DNA from: Candidatus Pacearchaeota archaeon
Lineage (GTDB): Archaea > Nanobdellota > Nanobdellia > Pacearchaeales > GW2011-AR1
Assembly (NCBI GenBank): GCA_016866995.1
Contig: VGKQ01000008.1
Span: 1-35,500 of the forward strand
DNA length: 35,500 nucleotides
Direction of reading: 5' to 3'
Part shown: piece after piece, positions 4,857 through 21,358 of the stretch
Numbering within the stretch: position 1 is the first letter of the stretch
How the letters are laid out: the number at the start of each line of letters is the position of its first letter
The notes under the pieces: generated by a model
Database searches by the model: none
What the model was told of the DNA's origin: nothing
What the model saw: the letters and a program-made list of their open reading frames with translations, nothing else
Program-made: the position numbers and the translations under genes

Positions 4857-5084
4857 ATGGAAAATGTAAGCTTAAAACTTGAAGAAAATTTCTTAAAAGC
4901 AATAGAAGCAATTATGAAAAAGAATAATTACATGACAAAAACAGAGTTCATAAGAGAAGCAATCAGAGACAAGATGAGAAAATTAGAGGAAAAAGAAATA
5001 ATTGAAAACAAAGATATGTTCAACCAGATTGTTGCAAGTGAAAGAAACATAAAAAAAAGGAAAATAAAGGAATTAAAGTATTAA
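4857..5084 (+). CDS. Ribbon-helix-helix antitoxin, convergent with a RelE-like toxin
   Basis: A 75-residue protein with an RHH N-terminus: a strand (NVSLKLEENFLKAIEAIMKK), then a helix-turn-helix ending FIREAIRDKM. A charged tail follows. Its stop codon directly abuts that of the toxin-like gene on the opposite strand. Most toxin-antitoxin pairs share one operon, so this tail-to-tail layout is unusual. The elaborate operator upstream supports an autoregulated DNA-binding role. Confidence 0.75.
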   Translation: MENVSLKLEENFLKAIEAIMKKNNYMTKTEFIREAIRDKMRKLEEKEIIENKDMFNQIVASERNIKKRKIKELKY

Positions 5085-5342
5085 TCAATAAATTTTATGG
5101 CTTCCAACTGCTTCAATAATTATCATTTCTTTTTTGTCATCAATGCTATAAATCATTCTAATATTATATCCAAGCCAACAACTCCACTTTCCTTCAAGTC
5201 TTCCGTGCAAAGGATGTGCTCCATTAACTCTTCTCGGTTCAACCTTAAGTTTTTCTAATTTCTCCCTAATATCATCTCTAGAACAAATATACTCCATCAA
5301 TCTCTTTTCAGTTTTCGAATTTGCAGTAAATATCTTATACAC
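5085..5342 (-). CDS. RelE/YafQ-like toxin
   Basis: An 85-residue protein with RelE-type features: PLHGRLEGKWSCWLGYNIRM followed by a strand, then IIIEAVGSHKIY. The 'HPLHGRLEGKWS...RMIYSID' segment and final GSH-Y are typical of RelE/YafQ-like mRNA interferases. The start is a GTG at 5342, with an AT-rich TATA-like stretch (TTAAATATTTTAAA, about 5355-5370) just upstream. No antitoxin precedes it on its own strand; the RHH gene facing it is the likely partner. Confidence 0.8.
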   Translation of the reverse strand: MYKIFTANSKTEKRLMEYICSRDDIREKLEKLKVEPRRVNGAHPLHGRLEGKWSCWLGYNIRMIYSIDDKKEMIIIEAVGSHKIY

Positions 5343-5401
5343 CTGATTAAATATAATTTAAAATATTTAAGTTTATCTTTCAAGCTTTTTTAAAAAAGCA
5401 A

Positions 5402-5670: not shown

Positions 5671-5680
5671 ATTTATAAAT
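5671..5680 (+). promoter_or_regulatory. TATA box of the sugar cluster
   Basis: ATTTATAAAT ends 20 bases before the ATG at 5700, placing transcription start at or near the start codon. It is the first promoter of the four-gene sugar cluster. Confidence 0.6.
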
Positions 5681-5699: not shown

Positions 5700-6638
5700 A
5701 TGCCTCCAAACTTAAAAAAAATAATATATGGAGCATGTTTATGGGGATTAAAATTTCCTATTGCAATAGCTGATATCGAGCCCACTTTTAGACAAGCAAG
5801 AAAAATATTTGATGAATCTGGTTTTCTAGGACAATGTTCTGTTGAATTATTTGCAGCATCAGAGCCAATACCAACTGCAGATATACATTATGCTGCAGCT
5901 GTCAGGGAAGCCTCACAGGAAAATAATTTTGTTCCAATAACAATGATTTTCCGCCCAAAACCAAGTCCAAGCATGGTTTCTTCAAGCAGAAAAAAGAGGA
6001 AGGAAGCTGTTGAACAGTGTGGCAGAAGCATAGAACTTGCAGTCATAGCCACTCCCCAGCAACATCCAGTAATTGTAAACGGCCCGTTTCAATTAGTTCA
6101 TGGAGCAGGAAAAATTGAAACTATTACTCCCACAAGAAAAAAATATTTAGTAGATAGCTTAAAGCATGTTGCTGAAAAACTAGAAGAAAAAGCAAGAGCA
6201 TACGGAGCACTCGAGCCATTAAGACGAAGCGAGACAAAAATGCCAAGCCAAGCAGATTTCTGGCTTGATGTTCTTGACAGGGTTAAAAGTCCCCGCCTCG
6301 GACTTTTAGTAGACACTGTTCATTTTTACGAGGGAAATGGGGGTTCAGAAGAAATGCTAAAAGCTCTTGAGATGGTTTGCCAGGCAAGAAGATGTTTCGG
6401 AGTTCATCTAAGCAATTACCCAAGCAGAGTTGAATGGGAGCCAAGTGGAATTGCAAAATACACTCCAGAAATACTTAGAATATTAATAGAACATAAATGT
6501 AAAGTGCCTGTTGATTATGAAGGTTTTGATACATGCCTGGATAAACTTGTTGGACTTCAAAGAAATCCAAATCAAAAAAACCAGACAGAAGTATTTGCTC
6601 GTTCAATGAGATATCTTGCCAGCCATGTAAAACAATAA
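5700..6638 (+). CDS. Sugar isomerase/epimerase, xylose-isomerase-like TIM barrel
   Basis: A 312-residue AP-endonuclease-2/xylose-isomerase-like TIM barrel. The pattern matches ketose 3-epimerase-type enzymes: metal/catalytic Glu in ALEPLRRSE (E172), DTVHFYEG (D205, H208), GVHLSN (H236) and DYEGF (E274). Such enzymes use a divalent metal to move a proton on a ketose or ketose phosphate. It opens a same-strand cluster with a second TIM barrel, a xylose isomerase homologue and a xylulokinase homologue, so a free ketose substrate is likely (inference). The exact sugar cannot be read from the sequence. Confidence 0.8.
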   Translation: MPPNLKKIIYGACLWGLKFPIAIADIEPTFRQARKIFDESGFLGQCSVELFAASEPIPTADIHYAAAVREASQENNFVPITMIFRPKPSPSMVSSSRKKRKEAVEQCGRSIELAVIATPQQHPVIVNGPFQLVHGAGKIETITPTRKKYLVDSLKHVAEKLEEKARAYGALEPLRRSETKMPSQADFWLDVLDRVKSPRLGLLVDTVHFYEGNGGSEEMLKALEMVCQARRCFGVHLSNYPSRVEWEPSGIAKYTPEILRILIEHKCKVPVDYEGFDTCLDKLVGLQRNPNQKNQTEVFARSMRYLASHVKQ

Positions 6639-6667
6639 AATAAAAGATAAATTTTTTCAAAAATTGT

Positions 6668-6677
6668 AAGGAGGTAA
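6668..6677 (+). promoter_or_regulatory. Strong Shine-Dalgarno sequence
   Basis: GTAAGGAGGT lies about 9 bases before the ATG at 6686. It is one of very few strong Shine-Dalgarno sites in a window dominated by leaderless starts, and it supports co-transcription of this gene with the one before it. Confidence 0.7.
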
Positions 6678-6685
6678 AAATAAAA

Positions 6686-7729
6686 ATGGTAAGTACTTTA
6701 ACAAAACCAAGCCTGGGTTTTCTTACAATATGCCGTGATATGGGGCAAGACCTTAAACCAGGTTTAGATGCACTTCAAGATAATGCTCTATTTGCAGTAA
6801 AAAATGGATATAAATTTTTAGAAGCAGCAGCTTTTCCAAGGCAAATGGAAGGAGAAACCACAGTAAGAGATTTTTATGGAGAAACAGTTAGTGTTGACTG
6901 GGTTTTAGCCAATCAAGCAGCAGCCAAAGAAGGAGTAAAAAGAATACAAGATAAAACAGGAGTTTCTGTTGAAGCTCTTTGCTATTGTGCAAATACAATT
7001 GGAAATGAAGCAGACAGAAAACATTTCCATAAAGTTGTAAAGGCAGCCGCAGTATTGGGTGTTCCAAATGCAGTTGGATTTATTGGAAATGTCTGGAATG
7101 AAACAGCAGGAATGAAAGGAGAACAAAGAAGAGATTATACTGCAAGAGCACTCACAGAAAGATTAGGGCCAATAGTTGATGAAGCAGATTCCTCTGGAGT
7201 TAATGTTGCAATTGAAAACTGCTCTATGAGAGGAGCTCTTGGATATGGCAGTCAAAGCCTTACATCTAATTGGTTCTCAACGCATTCAGAAATAAGATTT
7301 GTGTTGGGTGTATTGCCTAAGCTAAAAATGTGGTTTGACCCTTCACATATAAGAAACTACAGGGCTCAAAATTGTCCAGAACCTAGCGCAACAGTTCCAA
7401 TAGTAAGAATGATACAGGAGTTTGGAAAACATTTCAGTGGCTCGCATCTTAAAGATGGAGAAGATAATGTTGCCGGAATGTTGATACACGCGTCTACAGG
7501 AGATGTTTATGGAGATAATTCACACACAGGCGGAATATGGATTGCACGAGCGCCTGGAAGAGGACAGATATACTGGCATCCTTTTGAGGGAGCTATGCAA
7601 TTATATGCACCACAAGCTTTTGCAAGGTCTGTTGAAATGGAAGATTTAGCTGTCATGGGAAGAGCAGCAAATGAAGATGCTTTAAGAGGAGTGAAAGCTT
7701 TCTATCAGCCAATACTTGACAGAAATTAA
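6686..7729 (+). CDS. Second sugar isomerase/epimerase-like TIM barrel
   Basis: A 347-residue member of the same TIM-barrel superfamily but only distantly similar to the gene before it. Likely metal ligands are E177 (VAIENCSMRG), D218 and H221 (WFDPSHIRNY) and H254 (SGSHLKDGE); a longer insert follows before the barrel ends. It is translated from a strong Shine-Dalgarno site 47 bases after the preceding stop. It may act on a different stereocentre or on the cyclic/phosphorylated form of the sugar used by its neighbours. Substrate unknown. Confidence 0.75.
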   Translation: MVSTLTKPSLGFLTICRDMGQDLKPGLDALQDNALFAVKNGYKFLEAAAFPRQMEGETTVRDFYGETVSVDWVLANQAAAKEGVKRIQDKTGVSVEALCYCANTIGNEADRKHFHKVVKAAAVLGVPNAVGFIGNVWNETAGMKGEQRRDYTARALTERLGPIVDEADSSGVNVAIENCSMRGALGYGSQSLTSNWFSTHSEIRFVLGVLPKLKMWFDPSHIRNYRAQNCPEPSATVPIVRMIQEFGKHFSGSHLKDGEDNVAGMLIHASTGDVYGDNSHTGGIWIARAPGRGQIYWHPFEGAMQLYAPQAFARSVEMEDLAVMGRAANEDALRGVKAFYQPILDRN

Positions 7730-7762
7730 TTTTTTATTTTTTCTTTTTTTATTTTTTTAAAT
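7728..7762 (+). terminator. T-rich transcription terminator
   Basis: TTTTTTATTTTTTCTTTTTTTATTTTTTT directly follows the stop codon at 7729. Runs of T are the usual archaeal terminator. It would separate the first two sugar genes from the last two, which have their own TATA box. Confidence 0.55.
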
Positions 7763-7807
7763 ATATATCAGAACTATAAATTATCTTATATATTTTTCAA
7801 GACATAA

Positions 7808-7820
7808 ATATTTATAAATA
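7808..7820 (+). promoter_or_regulatory. TATA box for the xylose isomerase homologue
   Basis: ATATTTATAAATA lies 27 bases before the ATG at 7847, giving a leaderless or near-leaderless transcript for the isomerase-kinase pair. Confidence 0.6.
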
Positions 7821-7846
7821 TCCCCAAGTTAAATAAATAAACAAAA

Positions 7847-9004
7847 ATGCCACAAACATCTAAGCATAATTTCTGTGCATGGACTTTTAATGACGGCAAA
7901 AAAGGATTTACGCCATGCATGAGGCCTATGTGGAGCAATCTTTCTACTGTTGATAAAATTCAAATTACACGAGAAAGAGTTATTCCAAGAATACAAAAAG
8001 CAGCCGGATTATTTATTGCTCCTCTTGAGTTTGGATTTGAATTTCATTATGATAATGAATTAAATGAAGAAAATGCAGATGATGTTGCTCATGCTCTTGT
8101 TGAAGAAGAGCCAAAAATTTATGTTGGAATGACTACTCCTGGAGCTCATGTTCACTATGCATTTGGAGGAAGCGGCTCTTTAGATGATGTTGAAAGAGAT
8201 GGAGCAAGCAATCTTGGAATAAGAACAGTTGATTTGACATATAATCGGTTAAGAAAAGCATGGCATCCTGACACGCCTCCAACTCTTGTTTTATGGAATG
8301 GCTCGTGGGGTTATCATCTTGCAAGTCCTGCTATTCCTGGAATGCGCCAGCGCCTAAAAGGAGGTATTGCAGGATTGTGTAAACACGAAATGCAAAAAGG
8401 CGGATTATTATATTTTGCTATTGAACCAAAAGGAAATGAGGGGCATGCTCATCACATGGTTCCTGTTGTCGGAAGCGCAATCTCAATGTGGAGAGAAATA
8501 GAAGATGAATACGGAATTCCAAGAAAGAAAAAAGGTGTTAATAGAGAATTAGGACATGATGAAATGCTTGGACTTTGTACTATTTTTTCAACATCAGAAG
8601 AAATTGATAATGACATGCTTGTTCACGAGCATTTAAATTCTCAGGGCGGAAATGATGGAATAAGTTTAGGAGGGCCAGGAAAGTTTGATATTGACCATGA
8701 GGTTAAAGTTACTGGCAATGGAATAGTTATTGCAAGAATGATGCAAAATGCAGGATATTCAAGATGGTGCGGGCATGATATGCAGCCTCGCCCGTATGAT
8801 GCTATCAAGCAGGCTTTAGAAAGATGTGTAAGAGCAGCTTTGGCATGGGAAGCATGCAGAAAAGCTGGCAAGGAAATGCCATGGAATGAGATGATAAATG
8901 CATATGCAAGAAGAGATACAATTACTGTCGAAGACATGATGCGAGATTCTTTAACAAAAGCTCATGGTTATTTCAGAGAAACGTACCAAGCTTCTCTGTC
9001 TTAA
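7847..9004 (+). CDS. xylA: Xylose isomerase homologue (class I-like, divergent)
   Basis: A 385-residue protein of normal class I xylose isomerase length. Recognisable elements are FHYD (H67, D69; like FHDxD), AIEPKGNEG (E193, K195), NRELGHDEM (E234, H237; like NPEVGHEQM), KFDID (D281, D283) and HDMQPRP (D311). These supply most ligands of the two metal sites that carry out the aldose-ketose hydride shift. The Asp usually found in 'HIDLN' appears as His in VHEHLNSQ, so one ligand may be altered. It is followed 33 bases later by the kinase gene. Xylose isomerase is mainly bacterial, so acquisition by transfer is likely (inference). Another aldose or ketose could be the true substrate. Confidence 0.85.
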   Translation: MPQTSKHNFCAWTFNDGKKGFTPCMRPMWSNLSTVDKIQITRERVIPRIQKAAGLFIAPLEFGFEFHYDNELNEENADDVAHALVEEEPKIYVGMTTPGAHVHYAFGGSGSLDDVERDGASNLGIRTVDLTYNRLRKAWHPDTPPTLVLWNGSWGYHLASPAIPGMRQRLKGGIAGLCKHEMQKGGLLYFAIEPKGNEGHAHHMVPVVGSAISMWREIEDEYGIPRKKKGVNRELGHDEMLGLCTIFSTSEEIDNDMLVHEHLNSQGGNDGISLGGPGKFDIDHEVKVTGNGIVIARMMQNAGYSRWCGHDMQPRPYDAIKQALERCVRAALAWEACRKAGKEMPWNEMINAYARRDTITVEDMMRDSLTKAHGYFRETYQASLS

Positions 9005-9037
9005 ATTAATTTTCTGAAAAAATAAAAAGATAATAAA

Positions 9038-10528
9038 ATGACAATTTTAGCAGGAATTGATGCTGGAACAACCAGAGTTAAGGGTGTGATAATCAAAGAT
9101 GATGGAGCAATTCTCGCAGAAGTAACAACTCCTGATAACGATATACCAAAATATGTTGATAGTGAAAAAGCGTATTCTGAACAAAACCCAGATGACTGGG
9201 TAGATGCTGCTAAACAGAATCTAGCAGCTCTTGTTCAAAAAAGTGGAAAAAAACCAGATGCAACAGGAGTTTCAGGACAAATGCACGGTTTAGTTGCTCT
9301 TGACAAACACGGAAAACCATTAAGAAGAGCTATAATCTGGGATGACAGAAGAACAGATGCTGAGTCAAAACATATTCAGGAAGCAACAGGAAAAGATGTC
9401 GGGCATTTTACTGTTGCAAAATTATTATGGGTTAAAAATAATGAGCCAGAAGTTTTCGGAAAGATTGACAAGATAATGTTGCCAGAAGATTACGTAGCCT
9501 ATAAGCTCACTGGAGAGATGACAACAACTCCTCAAGGTTTATCGCAAATGAGATTATGGGATTTTAAAAAACACTGTCTAGATACAAGAGTTTTTGATGC
9601 AACTGGAATTCCAAGATTTATGATTCCACAAGTGATAACAAATACAGGTGTACATGGAAGAATTACAAGAGAAGTTGCAAGTCAAACAGGTTTATCAGAA
9701 GGGACTCCTATTCATGCAAAAGCAGGAGACCAAGAGTCAGCTGCAATCTCAAATGGTGCTGTAAGAAAAAAAGATGCATACGTAAACAGCGGGACATCAG
9801 GAATTATTGGAATTATAACAGAAGATATGCAGGATAAATCAGGAAGAGGAATTTACTGGATGGGACATCTTAATGAAACTGCTATCATTCTTGCTTGTAC
9901 TCTTGCATGTGGAGCTTCTTACAAATGGGCAAGAGACAATTTATTCCCGGATGCTAAAGAAAAATTAACTGATGATTTAGTCTATCCTGTAATAAATATC
10001 TTTGCTGGAAGAGCCCCTGCTGGCTCAGGAGGAGTTATCTGGCTTCCGTATCTCAAGGGAGAAAGGTCTCCACGAGATGATTCAACAATACGGGCAGCAC
10101 TAATAGGAATGGGTGAAAAAACTCCGCGAGATTATTTAGCACGCGCTGTTTTAGAAGGAGTTGCACACTCATTCAGGCACTGTCAGCAAGTTCTTGCACA
10201 GCAAGGAAATAGATTTGAAAAAGTCAGAGCAAGTATGACAGGACTATTATCAGAAACAAGTCCCTTTATACATATACTAGCAGATGATTTACAAGTTCCA
10301 ATAGAATTTGTCAGTAATCCTGGAGGCTGTTACGGAGTTGCATTAGCAGCTGGAGTCGGAGTGCAAGTTTACTCTTCTTTAGAAGAATCTTGTGACAGAA
10401 CAATAAAACCTCTTGCAGTAGTTGCTCCAAGGCAGGAAAATCTTGAAGCTCTGACACGCTCGTACAAGAGATTTGTTGAAATGGGAGATGTTTTATCTCC
10501 TATATTTGCAAAAAATGCAGAAAAATAA
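9038..10528 (+). CDS. xylB: Xylulokinase-like FGGY carbohydrate kinase
   Basis: A 496-residue, full-length FGGY kinase. The N-terminal phosphate loop is GIDAGTTRVKGV; the sugar-binding segment GVSGQMHGLVALD is characteristic of xylulokinase. The likely catalytic Asp is D231 in AKAGDQESAA. Later ATP-domain elements are NSGTSGIIG, GERSPRDD and the C-terminal MTGLLSETSPF...GCYGVALAAG. It would phosphorylate D-xylulose or a related ketose at O5 with ATP. Its position behind the isomerase supports the assignment. No pentose transporter lies nearby. Confidence 0.9.
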   Translation: MTILAGIDAGTTRVKGVIIKDDGAILAEVTTPDNDIPKYVDSEKAYSEQNPDDWVDAAKQNLAALVQKSGKKPDATGVSGQMHGLVALDKHGKPLRRAIIWDDRRTDAESKHIQEATGKDVGHFTVAKLLWVKNNEPEVFGKIDKIMLPEDYVAYKLTGEMTTTPQGLSQMRLWDFKKHCLDTRVFDATGIPRFMIPQVITNTGVHGRITREVASQTGLSEGTPIHAKAGDQESAAISNGAVRKKDAYVNSGTSGIIGIITEDMQDKSGRGIYWMGHLNETAIILACTLACGASYKWARDNLFPDAKEKLTDDLVYPVINIFAGRAPAGSGGVIWLPYLKGERSPRDDSTIRAALIGMGEKTPRDYLARAVLEGVAHSFRHCQQVLAQQGNRFEKVRASMTGLLSETSPFIHILADDLQVPIEFVSNPGGCYGVALAAGVGVQVYSSLEESCDRTIKPLAVVAPRQENLEALTRSYKRFVEMGDVLSPIFAKNAEK

Positions 10529-10577: not shown

Positions 10578-11840
10578 TTATCTTATTCTCTCTTTTAACT
10601 GATACATGAAAACTCCAAGCTGCTCATCTTTTACAGGGTCTGAATGCCCATCATAGCTCAAGTTCAGCATAGGAATGTTATTATTTCTTGCTCTCAACTC
10701 AGCTGTTTTTGATGAAACAACAGTTCCAGGCATGCAGTTGAAAGGCAGAACATTTACAATTCCCTGAACACGAGATGCAAAATACTCGCTTGCTCCTAGA
10801 GTGACAATTGCCTCTCCTTTGTAAGCTTCATGAACATATTCTCTTCCACGAGCAATGACTTCAGAAGCAGATGCATCATGAGAAAATTCTCCTAAAACTC
10901 CCGAGAATAAATGAGCAATATCTCTCTCATCTCTTCTCATCATTCTTACATCAATCCAGGTTTTCAAAAATTTTCTCCACTCTCTTTCATCTCTCGCCTC
11001 TCTCAGCTTGAACTCATTAATATAATCAAAAAATGATGTTACAGGCTCTAATAAAACAACTCCGCCAAGATTTTCAATTCTCTCAGCAAGATTCTGATTA
11101 GCAACATCACTTGAGCGGACATAAATCTCTCCTGTTAAAAATACAACAGGCTTTTTCTGCTCTCTCTTTTTAACTTTAACAAACTCTTCCACAGCTTGTT
11201 CAATTGTTCCTAATAATTCACATTTATGTTTATTTAAAAGAATTCTTGCCCTCTTCCCTGTTCTCGAGCCAGGAATTCTTTTTTCTATAACTCGAACAAT
11301 TCCCTTGAGATATCTGTCATAAATTTCTCTGCTTGTTCCAGGTTCTATTTCAAAAGGGCGGGTAAAGTGCAGACATCTTTCAAGCAAAGAAAGAGCAACC
11401 ATTCCATCCCAGATTCTAATTTTAGCATCACTTCCCATCCCAGAATAAGCATCTCTGTTGTCAAGAGTAAGTATGGGAACATTAATTCCTAAATCATGCA
11501 AAATTGCTTCTTGATTCATACAGTATCTTCCAAATCTGCACGGCCCCTCGCTCTTCCCCTGGAAAAATGCTTCATTATCTACTTGAAAATCTTGAGAAAA
11601 AACTCTCTCTAAAATATCTTGTGTTGTAATAATAGAAGGCAGACACTGATCCCCATTTGTATATTTTCTTCCAATTGAGAATCCAGCATCCTGAGAACGA
11701 GTCAGAACACCAGAATTATATCCCATACTTCTTAATACAGCAGCAAGTATGTAAGCAGAATCACACATATGTGGAATCCATATCTTTCTGTCTCTCAAAT
11801 CTTCAAGTTTATAGTCTCTAAATTTAAATCCAGGCTTCAT
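10578..11840 (-). CDS. HgdB-like C-terminal part of a split acyl-CoA dehydratase activase system
   Basis: A 420-residue protein resembling the last third of bacterial 'acyl-CoA dehydratase activase/DUF2229' giants, related to the 2-hydroxyglutaryl-CoA dehydratase D component. Typical stretches are WIPHMCDSAYILAAVLRSMG, NGDQCLPSIITTQDIL, GPCRFGRYCMNQ and NCMPGTVVSS. The conserved cysteines could hold an Fe-S cluster. Its start overlaps the stop of the DUF2229 gene by four bases (ATGA). No acyl-CoA-forming gene lies nearby, so the substrate is unknown. It is convergent with the sugar cluster, 49 bases away. Confidence 0.8.
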   Translation of the reverse strand: MKPGFKFRDYKLEDLRDRKIWIPHMCDSAYILAAVLRSMGYNSGVLTRSQDAGFSIGRKYTNGDQCLPSIITTQDILERVFSQDFQVDNEAFFQGKSEGPCRFGRYCMNQEAILHDLGINVPILTLDNRDAYSGMGSDAKIRIWDGMVALSLLERCLHFTRPFEIEPGTSREIYDRYLKGIVRVIEKRIPGSRTGKRARILLNKHKCELLGTIEQAVEEFVKVKKREQKKPVVFLTGEIYVRSSDVANQNLAERIENLGGVVLLEPVTSFFDYINEFKLREARDEREWRKFLKTWIDVRMMRRDERDIAHLFSGVLGEFSHDASASEVIARGREYVHEAYKGEAIVTLGASEYFASRVQGIVNVLPFNCMPGTVVSSKTAELRARNNNIPMLNLSYDGHSDPVKDEQLGVFMYQLKERIR

Positions 11841-13027
11841 CTTCTTTCTCCTTGTAATTCTATGCTGTCCAAAAATGCCTCTAATCTTGTAACAAGCCCG
11901 GCATCTGCTGTATGCTCATCAATCTGCAAAGTTAAAAACGGCTTTCCAAGCTCTCTTTCAAAAAAACTTCTTAAAAATGAATTTGGCCCGCATCCAAAAT
12001 AATCAAGAAAAACAGCATTCAGCCCAAGTTTCCTTGAAACATTTGCAGCTCCAAGTATTAATTGCCCCTGAATTGAAAACTCATTCCCCCATCTTCTTGA
12101 CAAATCTTCATCAGGAAGAGGAAGGAAATCCATTGGCAGAGGAGTAAAGCCATAATGCGCAACTTTCCCAGCAAGTTTTAAATTCATTTCTTCGTCATAA
12201 GCAGTATAGGGCCTTCCAACAATAACAATTCCTCTGCTTCCAAGATTATCAAGAACTTTTTTTCCTTCTGCCCTCAATGATTTTTTAAATCTTAAGTAAG
12301 CAATTTCTCCATCAACAAAAGCATTTTCTATTTCTCTCTCGCTGAAATTCAAGCCAGCTCTTGAAAAACTATCTCTCAATTCCATGAATAATTTTTTTCT
12401 GTCTCCTCTTAAATTAATAACAGGATTTATGCATCTTGTTTTTAAAGTATTTCTCGCAACAACCGGGCCAAAATTCTGCAGATATGGGCATGTTCTGCTT
12501 CTGTCCCATTCAGTTTCCCTTATTCCACTATCATCAGAATACTTGCTTCTCTGGCTCTGAATAATATCTGGAGCAAAAACAAAATCAACTCTGCCGTCCA
12601 AATCTGCAAAATGCCCAAATGCAACTTTAAACGGATAGCAGAATTCAGCAGTTGTCTTTTCCAAGCCGTCAGAAATTATTCTCTTGTTTGTTTTCTGTGA
12701 AGGAACAACACTAAAGCCAAGATTAGAAAGAAATACTGCCCACAAAGGTGCAAGTTCATAAAACATTCCTGCTCTCGGCAGTCCAGCACTTGTTTTCTGC
12801 CTTGATTTTTGCAGATATTTTTCTAACATTTTTTCACGAACATCAAAAGGATTGCTTGCTTCCTCTTCTGATTTTCCTTGATACTTCTCGCATCTGTCTC
12901 CATAAAACATTTTTCTTCCTTCTGTTTCTACAATAGTCACATCACAAGTATTTTCGCAGCCCTTGCATCTGAAAATTCTCTGCTCATAACTTGAAGTTGC
13001 AATTTCATCAAATCCTCTGAAGCTCAT
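11837..13027 (-). CDS. DUF2229 protein, middle part of the split activase system
   Basis: A 396-residue protein. It starts with a probable Fe-S or zinc motif (FRCKGCENTCDVTIV ... DRCEKY) and continues with the DUF2229 pattern: GLPRAGMFYELAPLWAVFLS, TTAEFCYPFKVAFGH, VGRPYTAYDEEMN, FGCGPNSFLRSF and IDEHTADAGLVTRLEAF. In bacteria this sequence is the centre of a single polypeptide of about 1,400 residues (family knowledge); here it stands alone between the activase and HgdB-like genes. It is coupled to both neighbours. A low-potential electron-transfer role is inferred from the family. Confidence 0.85.
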   Translation of the reverse strand: MSFRGFDEIATSSYEQRIFRCKGCENTCDVTIVETEGRKMFYGDRCEKYQGKSEEEASNPFDVREKMLEKYLQKSRQKTSAGLPRAGMFYELAPLWAVFLSNLGFSVVPSQKTNKRIISDGLEKTTAEFCYPFKVAFGHFADLDGRVDFVFAPDIIQSQRSKYSDDSGIRETEWDRSRTCPYLQNFGPVVARNTLKTRCINPVINLRGDRKKLFMELRDSFSRAGLNFSEREIENAFVDGEIAYLRFKKSLRAEGKKVLDNLGSRGIVIVGRPYTAYDEEMNLKLAGKVAHYGFTPLPMDFLPLPDEDLSRRWGNEFSIQGQLILGAANVSRKLGLNAVFLDYFGCGPNSFLRSFFERELGKPFLTLQIDEHTADAGLVTRLEAFLDSIELQGERR

Positions 13028-13116
13028 TTTATAGGCAAAGACTCTGAAAATTTAATTTTGTTATCTTCAAAATTTATTTTAGTTTTTGTTACTTTGCGTA
13101 ATTTAATGAAGCTCAT
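13024..13116 (-). CDS. Possible 30-residue leader ORF before the DUF2229 gene
   Basis: An ATG at 13116 opens a 30-codon ORF (MSFIKLRKVTKTKINF...) whose TGA lies inside the ATG of the DUF2229 gene (ATGA). Its start region TATAAAATGAGCTTCA is an exact 16-base copy of the DUF2229 start region 90 bases away. It could be a coupled leader peptide, or the old start duplicated. No family and no other evidence of expression. Confidence 0.3.
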   Translation of the reverse strand: MSFIKLRKVTKTKINFEDNKIKFSESLPIK

Positions 13117-13136
13117 TTTATATTTTGCATATTTTC

Positions 13137-14891
13137 TTATGCAACCTTCCTCCTCTCATTTTTTTCTTTATAACTTTGTTTTGCAATCATAGCAATCCCA
13201 ATTGCTCCTGTTAAATCAGGATATTTAGGAACTTGAATTCTTTTCTCAAGAAGTGTTTCAAACCCAGCAACAACAGCCTGGTTAAAAGCAACAGCACCCT
13301 GAAAAACAACATTCTGCCCAACTTCCTTTGCAACTCTATTCAAATAATTCCTGCATATTGCATAAGCTAATCCAGCGCACCTGTCTTCAAGTGGAGAATC
13401 TTGATAAGATAATAAGCTTGATGCCATAAAAACAGCGCATTTCTCAGACAAATCACATGGGTTTCTTGAAGCAAGTGCGAGCCTTGCAAAATCTCCCTTA
13501 ATGCTTATTCCAAGAATTTTTGCCTGCTCTTCAAGAAACGAGCCAGTAGAAGCAGCGCAAACCTTGTTCATCTCATTGTCAACAACTTTTCCATCCTGAA
13601 TTTTAATATACTTAGAATCCTGCCCGCCAATCTCAAAAACAGTGTCAGCATCAGGAAAAAAATAAACAGCTCCCTGAGCCTGCGCAGTTATCTCATTTTT
13701 AACAACAGCTCTTTTTCCAGGAACACTAATCCAGTCAGCAGCAATCTCTCTTCCAGAGCCAGTAACTCCTGCTTCAAGAACATCAACAAGCTCTTTGATT
13801 TTTTTTCCTCCAAGTTCAATATTTCCAAGCCTCTTCATGACATCAGTGACTGCATCAAGCGGCTTTCCGCTTGTTCTTTCATACAAGCCAAGAATAAATC
13901 TTCCATTTTCATCAAGCAATACTGCCTTTGTGCTCACGCTTCCAACATCCAAGCCAAGATAAACTCGTGTTCTTCCTGAAAGATTATAATCGCGGTTTAC
14001 AGAAAGAGTAACTTCATTTCCATTCTGCCTGTCTATAACTTCATAAGAAACCCTAATCCCTTCAAGCAATTTAAGTGAAAGCAAACCACAAACATCTTTT
14101 CTGAAATTTTTTAATTTTTCAATCACATCTCTCAATTCAAATCTTTGTCTTGCATAGTGCGCACATCCTGCTGCTTTCAAGTATAAAAAATCTTTTGGAA
14201 TAATTACCTCTTTTCCAGTTCCTTCTTTAAGAAATCTTACAACTGCTTTGTTCATTCCAACTCCTCCAAGCAGAAAAATTGGCTCTTTTGTTTTTCCTCT
14301 GCATATCCCATTCACAAAATTTCTTGCTAAAACCTGGCACAAGCCAGCGGCAATCCCGTCTGCTTTTGTTCCTCTCTGATAATGATGAGTAACATCGCTC
14401 TCTGCAAAAACAGCGCACCTTGCTGAGATGTTTGCAGCAACCTCTGCATCATATGCTGCCTGGACAAATTCTTCAAGGCTCATATTCAGCCTTCTTGCCA
14501 TTTTCTCAATTAATGCCCCTCCGCCTGCGCCACATAATGGGTTTGTTGCAAAGTCCTCCAGAACAAGCTCCCCATCTTCATAATGTATTGAATAGTGCGA
14601 GGAATTTTCTTTCCCAATATCAAAAACACTTCTTGCATCAGGATGATATCTTCTTATTCCCTCAAGAACTGCAACTGCATTTGGTGTATGTAAAATTTCA
14701 AGAATCTCAGCAATTGCCTTGCCATTAATCCCAGTAACTCCAACTTCATACTCTCCATCTTCAAATTGCTGAAGAACTTCAACTGTTCTCTCTCTCGGCT
14801 TTCCCTCAATTGCTTTTCTGATTATTCTCAAGCCATTATTCAAAGCAACAGCAGTTATATTCCCGGCTCCAATATCTAATCCAAGTTTCAT
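13137..14891 (-). CDS. Two-domain BcrA/BadF-type ATPase (acyl-CoA dehydratase activase)
   Basis: A 584-residue protein with two ASKHA-fold domains in tandem. The first begins LGLDIGAGNITAVALN and contains CGAGGGALIEKMA and ARCAVFAESD; the second begins YLGLDVGSVSTKAVLLD and contains FEIGGQDSKYI, CAASTGSFLEEQA and EKCAVFMASS. The Cys in CAASTG and KCAVF normally hold a [4Fe-4S] cluster between subunits in HgdC-type activases. Such proteins couple ATP hydrolysis to electron transfer onto a partner reductase. The gene starts the minus-strand operon with DUF2229 and HgdB-like genes; a TATA-like TTATAAG lies about 25 bases upstream. Confidence 0.9.
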   Translation of the reverse strand: MKLGLDIGAGNITAVALNNGLRIIRKAIEGKPRERTVEVLQQFEDGEYEVGVTGINGKAIAEILEILHTPNAVAVLEGIRRYHPDARSVFDIGKENSSHYSIHYEDGELVLEDFATNPLCGAGGGALIEKMARRLNMSLEEFVQAAYDAEVAANISARCAVFAESDVTHHYQRGTKADGIAAGLCQVLARNFVNGICRGKTKEPIFLLGGVGMNKAVVRFLKEGTGKEVIIPKDFLYLKAAGCAHYARQRFELRDVIEKLKNFRKDVCGLLSLKLLEGIRVSYEVIDRQNGNEVTLSVNRDYNLSGRTRVYLGLDVGSVSTKAVLLDENGRFILGLYERTSGKPLDAVTDVMKRLGNIELGGKKIKELVDVLEAGVTGSGREIAADWISVPGKRAVVKNEITAQAQGAVYFFPDADTVFEIGGQDSKYIKIQDGKVVDNEMNKVCAASTGSFLEEQAKILGISIKGDFARLALASRNPCDLSEKCAVFMASSLLSYQDSPLEDRCAGLAYAICRNYLNRVAKEVGQNVVFQGAVAFNQAVVAGFETLLEKRIQVPKYPDLTGAIGIAMIAKQSYKEKNERRKVA

Positions 14892-20028: not shown

Positions 20029-20483
20029 ACATAAAATTTATAGAAAGAAGTGAGAAAGATAAAATAATTGAAAAGTTAAATGAGCAGTTTGGAATTACAG
20101 AACTGCCATACTTGCTGATTATGATAGGAAAAGAAAAAATCCGGGCATATTCTGGAAGTTTGTCAAAAGCGGAAATAATGGAGCTTGGAAGAAGTGTTAA
20201 TGTTGAGCTAATAGGAATTTATCTTGCCAAGTTTGAGAAAGACGGAATAAGATTAAGCCATGATGGTATTTCATTATTGAAAGAGAGAATAACAAAAAAT
20301 ATTCTCGAAGTAAATGAAAAACAAGCTTCAAATTGGTTAAAAGGAAATGATATTTTTATTGAGGATAAAAATCTGTTTGGATATTTTGTTCTGAAACACA
20401 GAAATGAATTAATCGGCTGCGGGAAATTATCTCAGGGCAGAATTGTCAATTTTGTTCCAAAAGAGCGCAGGGTAAAAAATTAA
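20025..20483 (+). CDS. PUA-domain RNA-binding protein
   Basis: A 152-residue protein with a pre-PUA N-terminal half (KIIEKLNEQFGITELPYLLI) and a C-terminal PUA domain (ASNWLKGNDIF ... GYFVLKHRNELIGCGKLSQG ... FVPKERRVK). PUA domains bind structured RNA in methyltransferases and pseudouridine synthases. The arrangement resembles the N-/C-terminal extension of archaeal NSUN enzymes and Nip7, so it may act with the free-standing NSUN methylase at 17081 (inference). Confidence 0.78.
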   Translation: MNIKFIERSEKDKIIEKLNEQFGITELPYLLIMIGKEKIRAYSGSLSKAEIMELGRSVNVELIGIYLAKFEKDGIRLSHDGISLLKERITKNILEVNEKQASNWLKGNDIFIEDKNLFGYFVLKHRNELIGCGKLSQGRIVNFVPKERRVKN

Positions 20484-21358
20484 GAACTAGCACTTGCAAC
20501 AAGATTTGCAAAAGCCCCATTTGTCTCATCTACTAAAGTGTTCATGCCACTAAAAAAAGCATCTGTGCTTTCTGGCCTTGAGGCATATGCTTTTCTGTCT
20601 TCTGGAGAAGGGTCATAAGGCAGAACACTCACTCCAATTGCAATTTTTCTCCCACCTCTTTCATAAAATCTCGGGCTTGAAGTCAAATACAACTTTTGTT
20701 CAGGATCAGTTGCAGTCTCTGCCTCATAATGAAGAAGCCTTGCACCTAATTTTATTGCCCTAAATATATGTGTTCTCTCGCCAGATTCTACTTTAATTAA
20801 TCTAACCCAATTTTTTAATGATACTCCTTCTGTATATTCTGGATCAATTCCTAAAAGCTCTTCTGCAGCAGGAGTATGCACAAATGCTCGGTTTGCAAAA
20901 TCATAATAAGAATATGCAACATCTCTCGCGCCAGGAGCCGATTTAATGGCAATTCCAACAGCAATTCTCGGTCCATCTGCCCGGAGAATATGCGCAATTC
21001 TCTCAGCATCTACTAATCTTTCAGAAACACCTCGAAGCTCATCTTGAACTTGTCTTAATTCAGCTTCATACTCTCTCCCCCTAGTATCAATATAATCTCG
21101 AGCAAGGACACATTTTCCCGGCTTGCATGCTCCAGACATAATTCTTTCTACTCTTAATCTTCTTGTTAATTCATCAACTCTTTCAAGCAATCTACCAATT
21201 TCAGGAGAAGCACTCACCAATGCATCCAAAGAACCAATTTTACCCAAAACCCGCTGAAGAACTCCTTGGATTAATCTTAATTCTTCAACTCGCCAAGGAA
21301 TGCTATCACTAGAAGCCGGAATTACTCCTCCCTTTCCCTCTTTATCCATTTTCAGCAT
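20480..21358 (-). CDS. Unknown protein with coiled coil and PAS-like C-terminal half
   Basis: A 292-residue soluble protein. Residues about 25-125 are helical and heptad-like (LERVDELTRRLRVERI, LRQVQDELRGVSERLVDAER). The second half, YYDFANRAFVHTPAAEELLG then SLKNWVRLI, resembles a PAS sensor fold. It is rich in Arg and Ala, unlike its Lys-rich neighbours, which hints at transfer or an unusual role. Two cysteines (GACKPGKC) could bind metal. No output domain is visible. The stop overlaps the convergent PUA gene by four bases. Confidence 0.65.
   Translation of the reverse strand: MLKMDKEGKGGVIPASSDSIPWRVEELRLIQGVLQRVLGKIGSLDALVSASPEIGRLLERVDELTRRLRVERIMSGACKPGKCVLARDYIDTRGREYEAELRQVQDELRGVSERLVDAERIAHILRADGPRIAVGIAIKSAPGARDVAYSYYDFANRAFVHTPAAEELLGIDPEYTEGVSLKNWVRLIKVESGERTHIFRAIKLGARLLHYEAETATDPEQKLYLTSSPRFYERGGRKIAIGVSVLPYDPSPEDRKAYASRPESTDAFFSGMNTLVDETNGAFANLVASASS

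Follow-up and report, generated by a model that had tools for sequence, protein, structure and literature searches.

A DPANN-type archaeon probably gained a bacterial xylose isomerase and xylulokinase pair by an old lateral transfer

Gene content and setting of the locus

The window, by which we mean the whole 35,500-nucleotide stretch of DNA analysed, contains four intact, adjacent open reading frames on the forward (+) strand. The first two, B1 (5700..6638) and B2 (6686..7729), each code for a TIM barrel of the PF01261 family, with B2 being of the 'sugar phosphate isomerase/epimerase' type. They are followed by XI (7847..9004), a xylose isomerase-like gene of a family without classification, and XK (9038..10528), a gene for an FGGY kinase of the xylulokinase type. 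The window's contig is the eighth of 70 in a genome of 1,064,373 bases that is 85.6% complete, and the host is, judging partly by gene content, a DPANN-type archaeon, whose relatives have small genomes. Archaeal genes, namely those for PolB, TFS-like and CDC48-like proteins, lie on both flanks of the cluster. The GC3 of the four genes is 0.20-0.23 as against 0.255 +/- 0.063 for the genome, while their overall GC is high (0.39). Contamination or a chimeric assembly is rejected as the main reading on account of the host-like GC3, codon use, TATA boxes and archaeal flanking genes, all of these being properties of the assembled sequence rather than of reads.

Several other elements occur around the cluster. 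Between PolB and B1, a gene for an RHH/CopG protein (4857-5084, +) and an oppositely oriented one for a YafQ/ParE-like protein (~5085-5345) form a probable toxin-antitoxin pair. Convergent with the xylose genes is a group of three genes (10578-14891, -) that look like a 2-hydroxyacyl-CoA dehydratase activase system in split form, a group which is also GC-rich and in which BadF/BcrA is found twice and DUF2229 once, with the third gene having no family. Further along, a GC-rich ORF of 292 aa (20480-21358, -) with no Pfam or NCBIfam match sits among AT-rich neighbours.

The octamer TTTATAAA is found at 5672..5679 (+), 28 nt 5' of the start codon of B1, and again at 7811..7818 (+), 36 nt 5' of that of XI. 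Across the genome, 44 genes have it 20-29 nt 5' of the start codon, as opposed to 2-13 per other 10-nt bin, and such an enrichment would be expected if it is the TATA box of the host. The octamer is not present upstream of B2 or XK; B2 is instead preceded by a Shine-Dalgarno-like AAGGAGGT (6668..6675, +). Immediately 3' of B2 lies a T-rich tract of 29 nt (7730..7758, +), a candidate archaeal terminator going by its sequence. Since TTTATAAA precedes B1 and XI only, and the T-rich tract follows B2, we infer two separate transcription units, B1-B2 and XI-XK. The host-like GC3 together with the host TATA boxes suggests a long residence in this genome and hence an old transfer.

A xylose isomerase-like family with a histidine at the metal site

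XI has no match to any Pfam family, and its match to the xylose isomerase model TIGR02631 is partial and, at 43.5 bits, far short of the 447-bit cut-off; a member of the same family from Atribacterota likewise stays below it with 66.9 bits. Nevertheless, XI matches solved xylose isomerases both as a sequence (E 5e-8) and as a profile (9e-19). Its predicted model (pLDDT 86.6) has the XylA TIM-barrel fold, and the 50 best PDB matches listed for it are xylose/glucose isomerases with a TM of about 0.7.

We aligned XI to XylA proteins of class I (Kitasatospora, Thermus, Deinococcus) and class II (E. coli, Priestia, Roseinatronobacter). At positions of known catalytic residues of XylA, XI has E193, K195, E234, H237, D281, D283 and D311; its W150 corresponds to XylA W137 and its H67 to XylA H54. 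The counterpart of XylA Asp57 is E71, which comes after a one-residue insertion in the H54-D57 motif. The catalytic and metal-ligating roles of these XylA positions are well understood, including that of an Asp at the metal site in both class I and class II. Out of Glu181, Glu217, Asp245, Asp287, His220, Asp255 and Asp257, XI keeps all but Asp245, the Asp of 'HIDLN', in place of which it has His262. This His is invariant in all 64 aligned members of the family. Thus, XI shares with XylA the fold, most of the catalytic residues and, as seen below, a XylB partner; the family differs in the His for Asp245 throughout the aligned members, in its missing Pfam match and in scores of 43-67 bits against 447. 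The active-site loops, too, are unlike those of XylA. By sequence, XI is outside XylA classes I and II. A literature search for a XylA family with a His metal ligand found none, and to our knowledge no member of the XI family has been assayed.

When 84,980 species genomes were scanned with a profile, the family was recovered at 74 loci, which are nearly all bacterial, span about 20 phyla and, except for a few remote ones, show 46-56% identity to XI. A xylulokinase or XylB-type gene is present at 47 of these, usually adjoining XI, and four Atribacterota loci (L024, L028, L036, L075) have the XI-then-XK order of the window. Upstream in the Atribacterota operon are genes for a XylF-like binding protein (334 bits, with xylF as the best family), a permease and a ROK regulator, and its XylB scores above the cut-off (601 versus 380 bits). 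A GH3 cluster, of which the representative is beta-xylosidase/beta-glucosidase-like, occurs at 11 of the 74 loci. Because these bacterial neighbours comprise a XylF-type ABC importer, XylB and GH3 xylosidase-like genes, D-xylose is the likely substrate of the family. Two of the loci (L022, L023) are on an identical contig of 56,302 bases in two MAGs assigned to separate phyla (Phycisphaerae and KSB1), and one of these two bins is probably contaminated. Viral contigs contained no relatives of XI, B1 or B2; plasmids yielded only remote matches to XI, one of them annotated xylA, and no match to B1.

One may alternatively regard XI as the isomerase of another aldose, perhaps a hexose or a rare pentose, and XK as adapted to the matching ketose. 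The invariant metal-site His, the insertion in the H54-D57 motif and the loops unlike those of XylA would accord with such a shift in specificity, as would the adjoining B1 and B2. However, the bacterial neighbours, i.e. the XylF-like importer, the XylB above its cut-off and the GH3 xylosidase-like genes, indicate xylose, and we consider another aldose to be a distinctly unlikely substrate.

XK carries both the FGGY_N and FGGY_C domains. Its best family by far is XylB (TIGR01312), with 320.7 bits; this is below the cut-off of 380.25, but about 150 bits ahead of the next-best families (171 and 148 bits). The GQMHG motif at 80-84 and the catalytic Asp in AGDQE at 229-233 are those of a xylulokinase. 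XK thus has the domains and the GQMHG motif of XylB but differs from it in its score and in being only 27-34% identical to most of the bacterial XylB proteins compared, with araB and one Streptomycetaceae copy being lower. As we infer the chemistry of the pair, XI would isomerise D-xylose to D-xylulose through a metal-dependent hydride shift, with the family's His replacing Asp as one ligand of the substrate-side metal, and XK would phosphorylate the product to D-xylulose 5-phosphate.

The two TIM barrels of the upstream unit

Both B1 and B2 score above the PF01261 cut-off of 31.1 bits (56.1 and 47.4 bits, respectively). B1 retains E172, E178, D205, H208, H236, R243 and E274, the signature of ketose 3-epimerases of the DTE/IolO-like type, with the metal ligands (Glu, Asp, His, Glu) and the ExxxxxE and DxxH spacing both in place. 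We read this signature by the roles that we take the DTE active-site residues to have. The nearest PDB sequence is that of TM0416 (IolO; E 0.0014), and the match to the IolO model NF041099 is weak, at 32.6 bits versus the 300 of its cut-off. Hence, B1 has in common with the D-tagatose 3-epimerase/IolO (TM0416) group the active-site residues E..(6)..E, D-x-x-H, H, R and E; it differs by falling below the IolO cut-off and by its greater length of 312 aa, compared with the 269 positions of the IolO model and the 290-residue chain of TM0416. The single-sequence structure model of B1 (pLDDT 37) is too low in quality for a comparison with DTE. In B2, we observed the motifs E177 (EN), D218-P-S-H221 and H254-L-K-D. 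Its plasmid relatives (25-29% identity) are called sugar phosphate isomerase/epimerase, and two of the three annotated ones examined adjoin Gfo/Idh/MocA oxidoreductases. B1 would most likely epimerise a free ketose at C3, and B2 would isomerise or epimerise a sugar.

The initial annotation described a bacterial-type xylose isomerase and FGGY kinase accompanied by two extra TIM barrels, and this description of the proteins holds. It further proposed that the barrels mark an input other than plain xylose. This would be so in a single four-gene route, wherein B1 and B2 epimerise a rare sugar or ketose for use by XI and XK, and the adjacency and common direction of the four genes, their similar composition and the ketose 3-epimerase residues of B1 are all compatible with it. 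However, the complete set was found in no other genome searched. B1 and B2 were not found in the host's relatives, except for one weak match to B2 of 78 residues, nor did 50 bacterial genomes with XI contain any convincing counterparts, and a custom PF01261-type barrel profile detected a barrel near XI at just one of the 74 loci (L032). Accordingly, the four genes are not conserved as a set, an outcome that the annotation itself had named as counting against its proposal. Moreover, the XI family occurs in bacterial xylose operons without B1 or B2, and in the window itself the separate promoters and the T-tract divide B1-B2 from XI-XK. We therefore think a joint four-gene route unlikely, and the case for a special input falls with it. 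The reading that we favour as probable is that the host gained the XI-XK pair from bacteria by an old lateral transfer, for turning D-xylose into D-xylulose 5-phosphate, with B1-B2 being a separate neighbouring unit of distant PF01261 barrels.

Bacterial ancestry of XI and XK

Among 275 DPANN-like genomes, XI is found in just two, the host and another (G089), which has a lone homologue (6373-7512, -, on a contig that we list as both L008 and L078) with 35-36% identity, located near ribosomal-protein genes. In the XI tree, the two archaeal copies fall in different bacterial groups. The G089 copy belongs with two other loci (L076 and L077) in a divergent subfamily, and that of the window comes near Bacillota, on a long branch without firm support. 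An AU test rejects the monophyly of archaeal XI (p = 3.5e-5), and on this phylogeny the host and G089 gained XI separately. XK, barring three remote FGGY kinases, is seen in the host alone among its relatives, and is on a long, weakly supported branch in its tree.

A bacterial origin is thus well supported for XI and likely for XK. The possibility that the genes belong to long-standing archaeal clades, against which the initial annotation was to be checked, does not apply to XI; the phylogeny that it suggested for finding the donor points to bacteria in the case of XI, although the long branches and weak support fix no particular donor for either gene. Furthermore, XI and XK may have been gained separately, because XK is only 27-34% identical to most of the bacterial XylB proteins compared, as opposed to about 50% for XI. 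If the transfer is as we propose, the pair would have come to be run from its own host promoter.

The fate of xylulose 5-phosphate

No transporter is encoded within the cluster, and, as had been noted of its vicinity, pentose-phosphate genes are missing; this latter result extends to the entire accessible genome (85.6% complete, with 4.4%, or 47,157 bases, read as N), in which we found no RPE, transketolase or RpiA and, with E. coli queries, no RpiB or transaldolase. Genes counted here as missing could lie within the N stretches, which are located in C55-C70, C30, C35 and C26. Among the relatives, RPE was found in 29 of 140, RpiA in a single one. The accessible genome also yielded no phosphoketolase motif. 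As neither the lower pentose-phosphate enzymes nor this motif were found, xylulose 5-phosphate would have no visible outlet, and the route appears incomplete in the part of the genome that is accessible. We also considered cleavage of a ketose 1-phosphate by an AraD/FucA aldolase, but rejected it, the sole AraD-like match being a fusion in an unrelated cluster. In that cluster, an apparent fusion of a flavoprotein-like and an AraD-type aldolase module (C7:7840-8901, -) lies among methyltransferases and a thioredoxin-reductase-like gene.

These absences raise the prospect of a bypass at the level of the free ketose. Here, B1 would epimerise D-xylulose to D-ribulose ahead of phosphorylation, because the cell lacks a ribulose-phosphate 3-epimerase, and XK would then produce ribulose 5-phosphate for nucleotide and RuBisCO metabolism. 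Apart from the missing enzymes, this would fit the ketose 3-epimerase signature of B1 and the presence in the genome of RuBisCO and of relatives of AMP/thymidine phosphorylase and PRPP synthetase. The genome has relatives of GAPDH and PGK as well. Yet neither RpiA/B nor a phosphoribulokinase-like P-loop motif was found that could carry ribulose 5-phosphate onward, XK retains its xylulokinase motif, and the absences themselves come from an incomplete and partly masked assembly. The bypass is thus highly doubtful, and there is an even slighter chance that it is headed by a third xylose isomerase class, marked by its His metal ligand, in the form of the XI family.

The acquired pair finds a close parallel in Halorhabdus (Huta_2443/Huta_2446), an archaeon with a bacterial-type D-xylose route of isomerase and xylulokinase gained from bacteria (PMC8551123). 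The initial annotation took the well-studied archaeal pentose routes to be oxidative, and Halorhabdus is a published case to the contrary. However, the isomerase of Halorhabdus belongs to XylA class II, and the archaeon is listed as having RPE, Rpi, transketolase and transaldolase (PMC8551123). In our host, by contrast, XI falls outside both XylA classes, and these lower enzymes were not found.

Implications

The bacterial isomerase route has so far been shown in Halorhabdus (PMC8551123); our favoured reading would extend it to DPANN-type archaea with small genomes, in which XI appears to have been gained at least twice, on separate occasions. The missing lower pathway poses the question of how xylulose 5-phosphate is used in such a cell; were the bypass true, it would mean that an archaeon without a pentose-phosphate pathway turns xylose into ribulose 5-phosphate. 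More generally, these results bring to light a large xylose-isomerase-like family that is missed by both Pfam and NCBIfam and whose members share an altered residue at the catalytic metal. Given that XylA is an industrial enzyme, a class with a different metal ligand would be of interest for assay.
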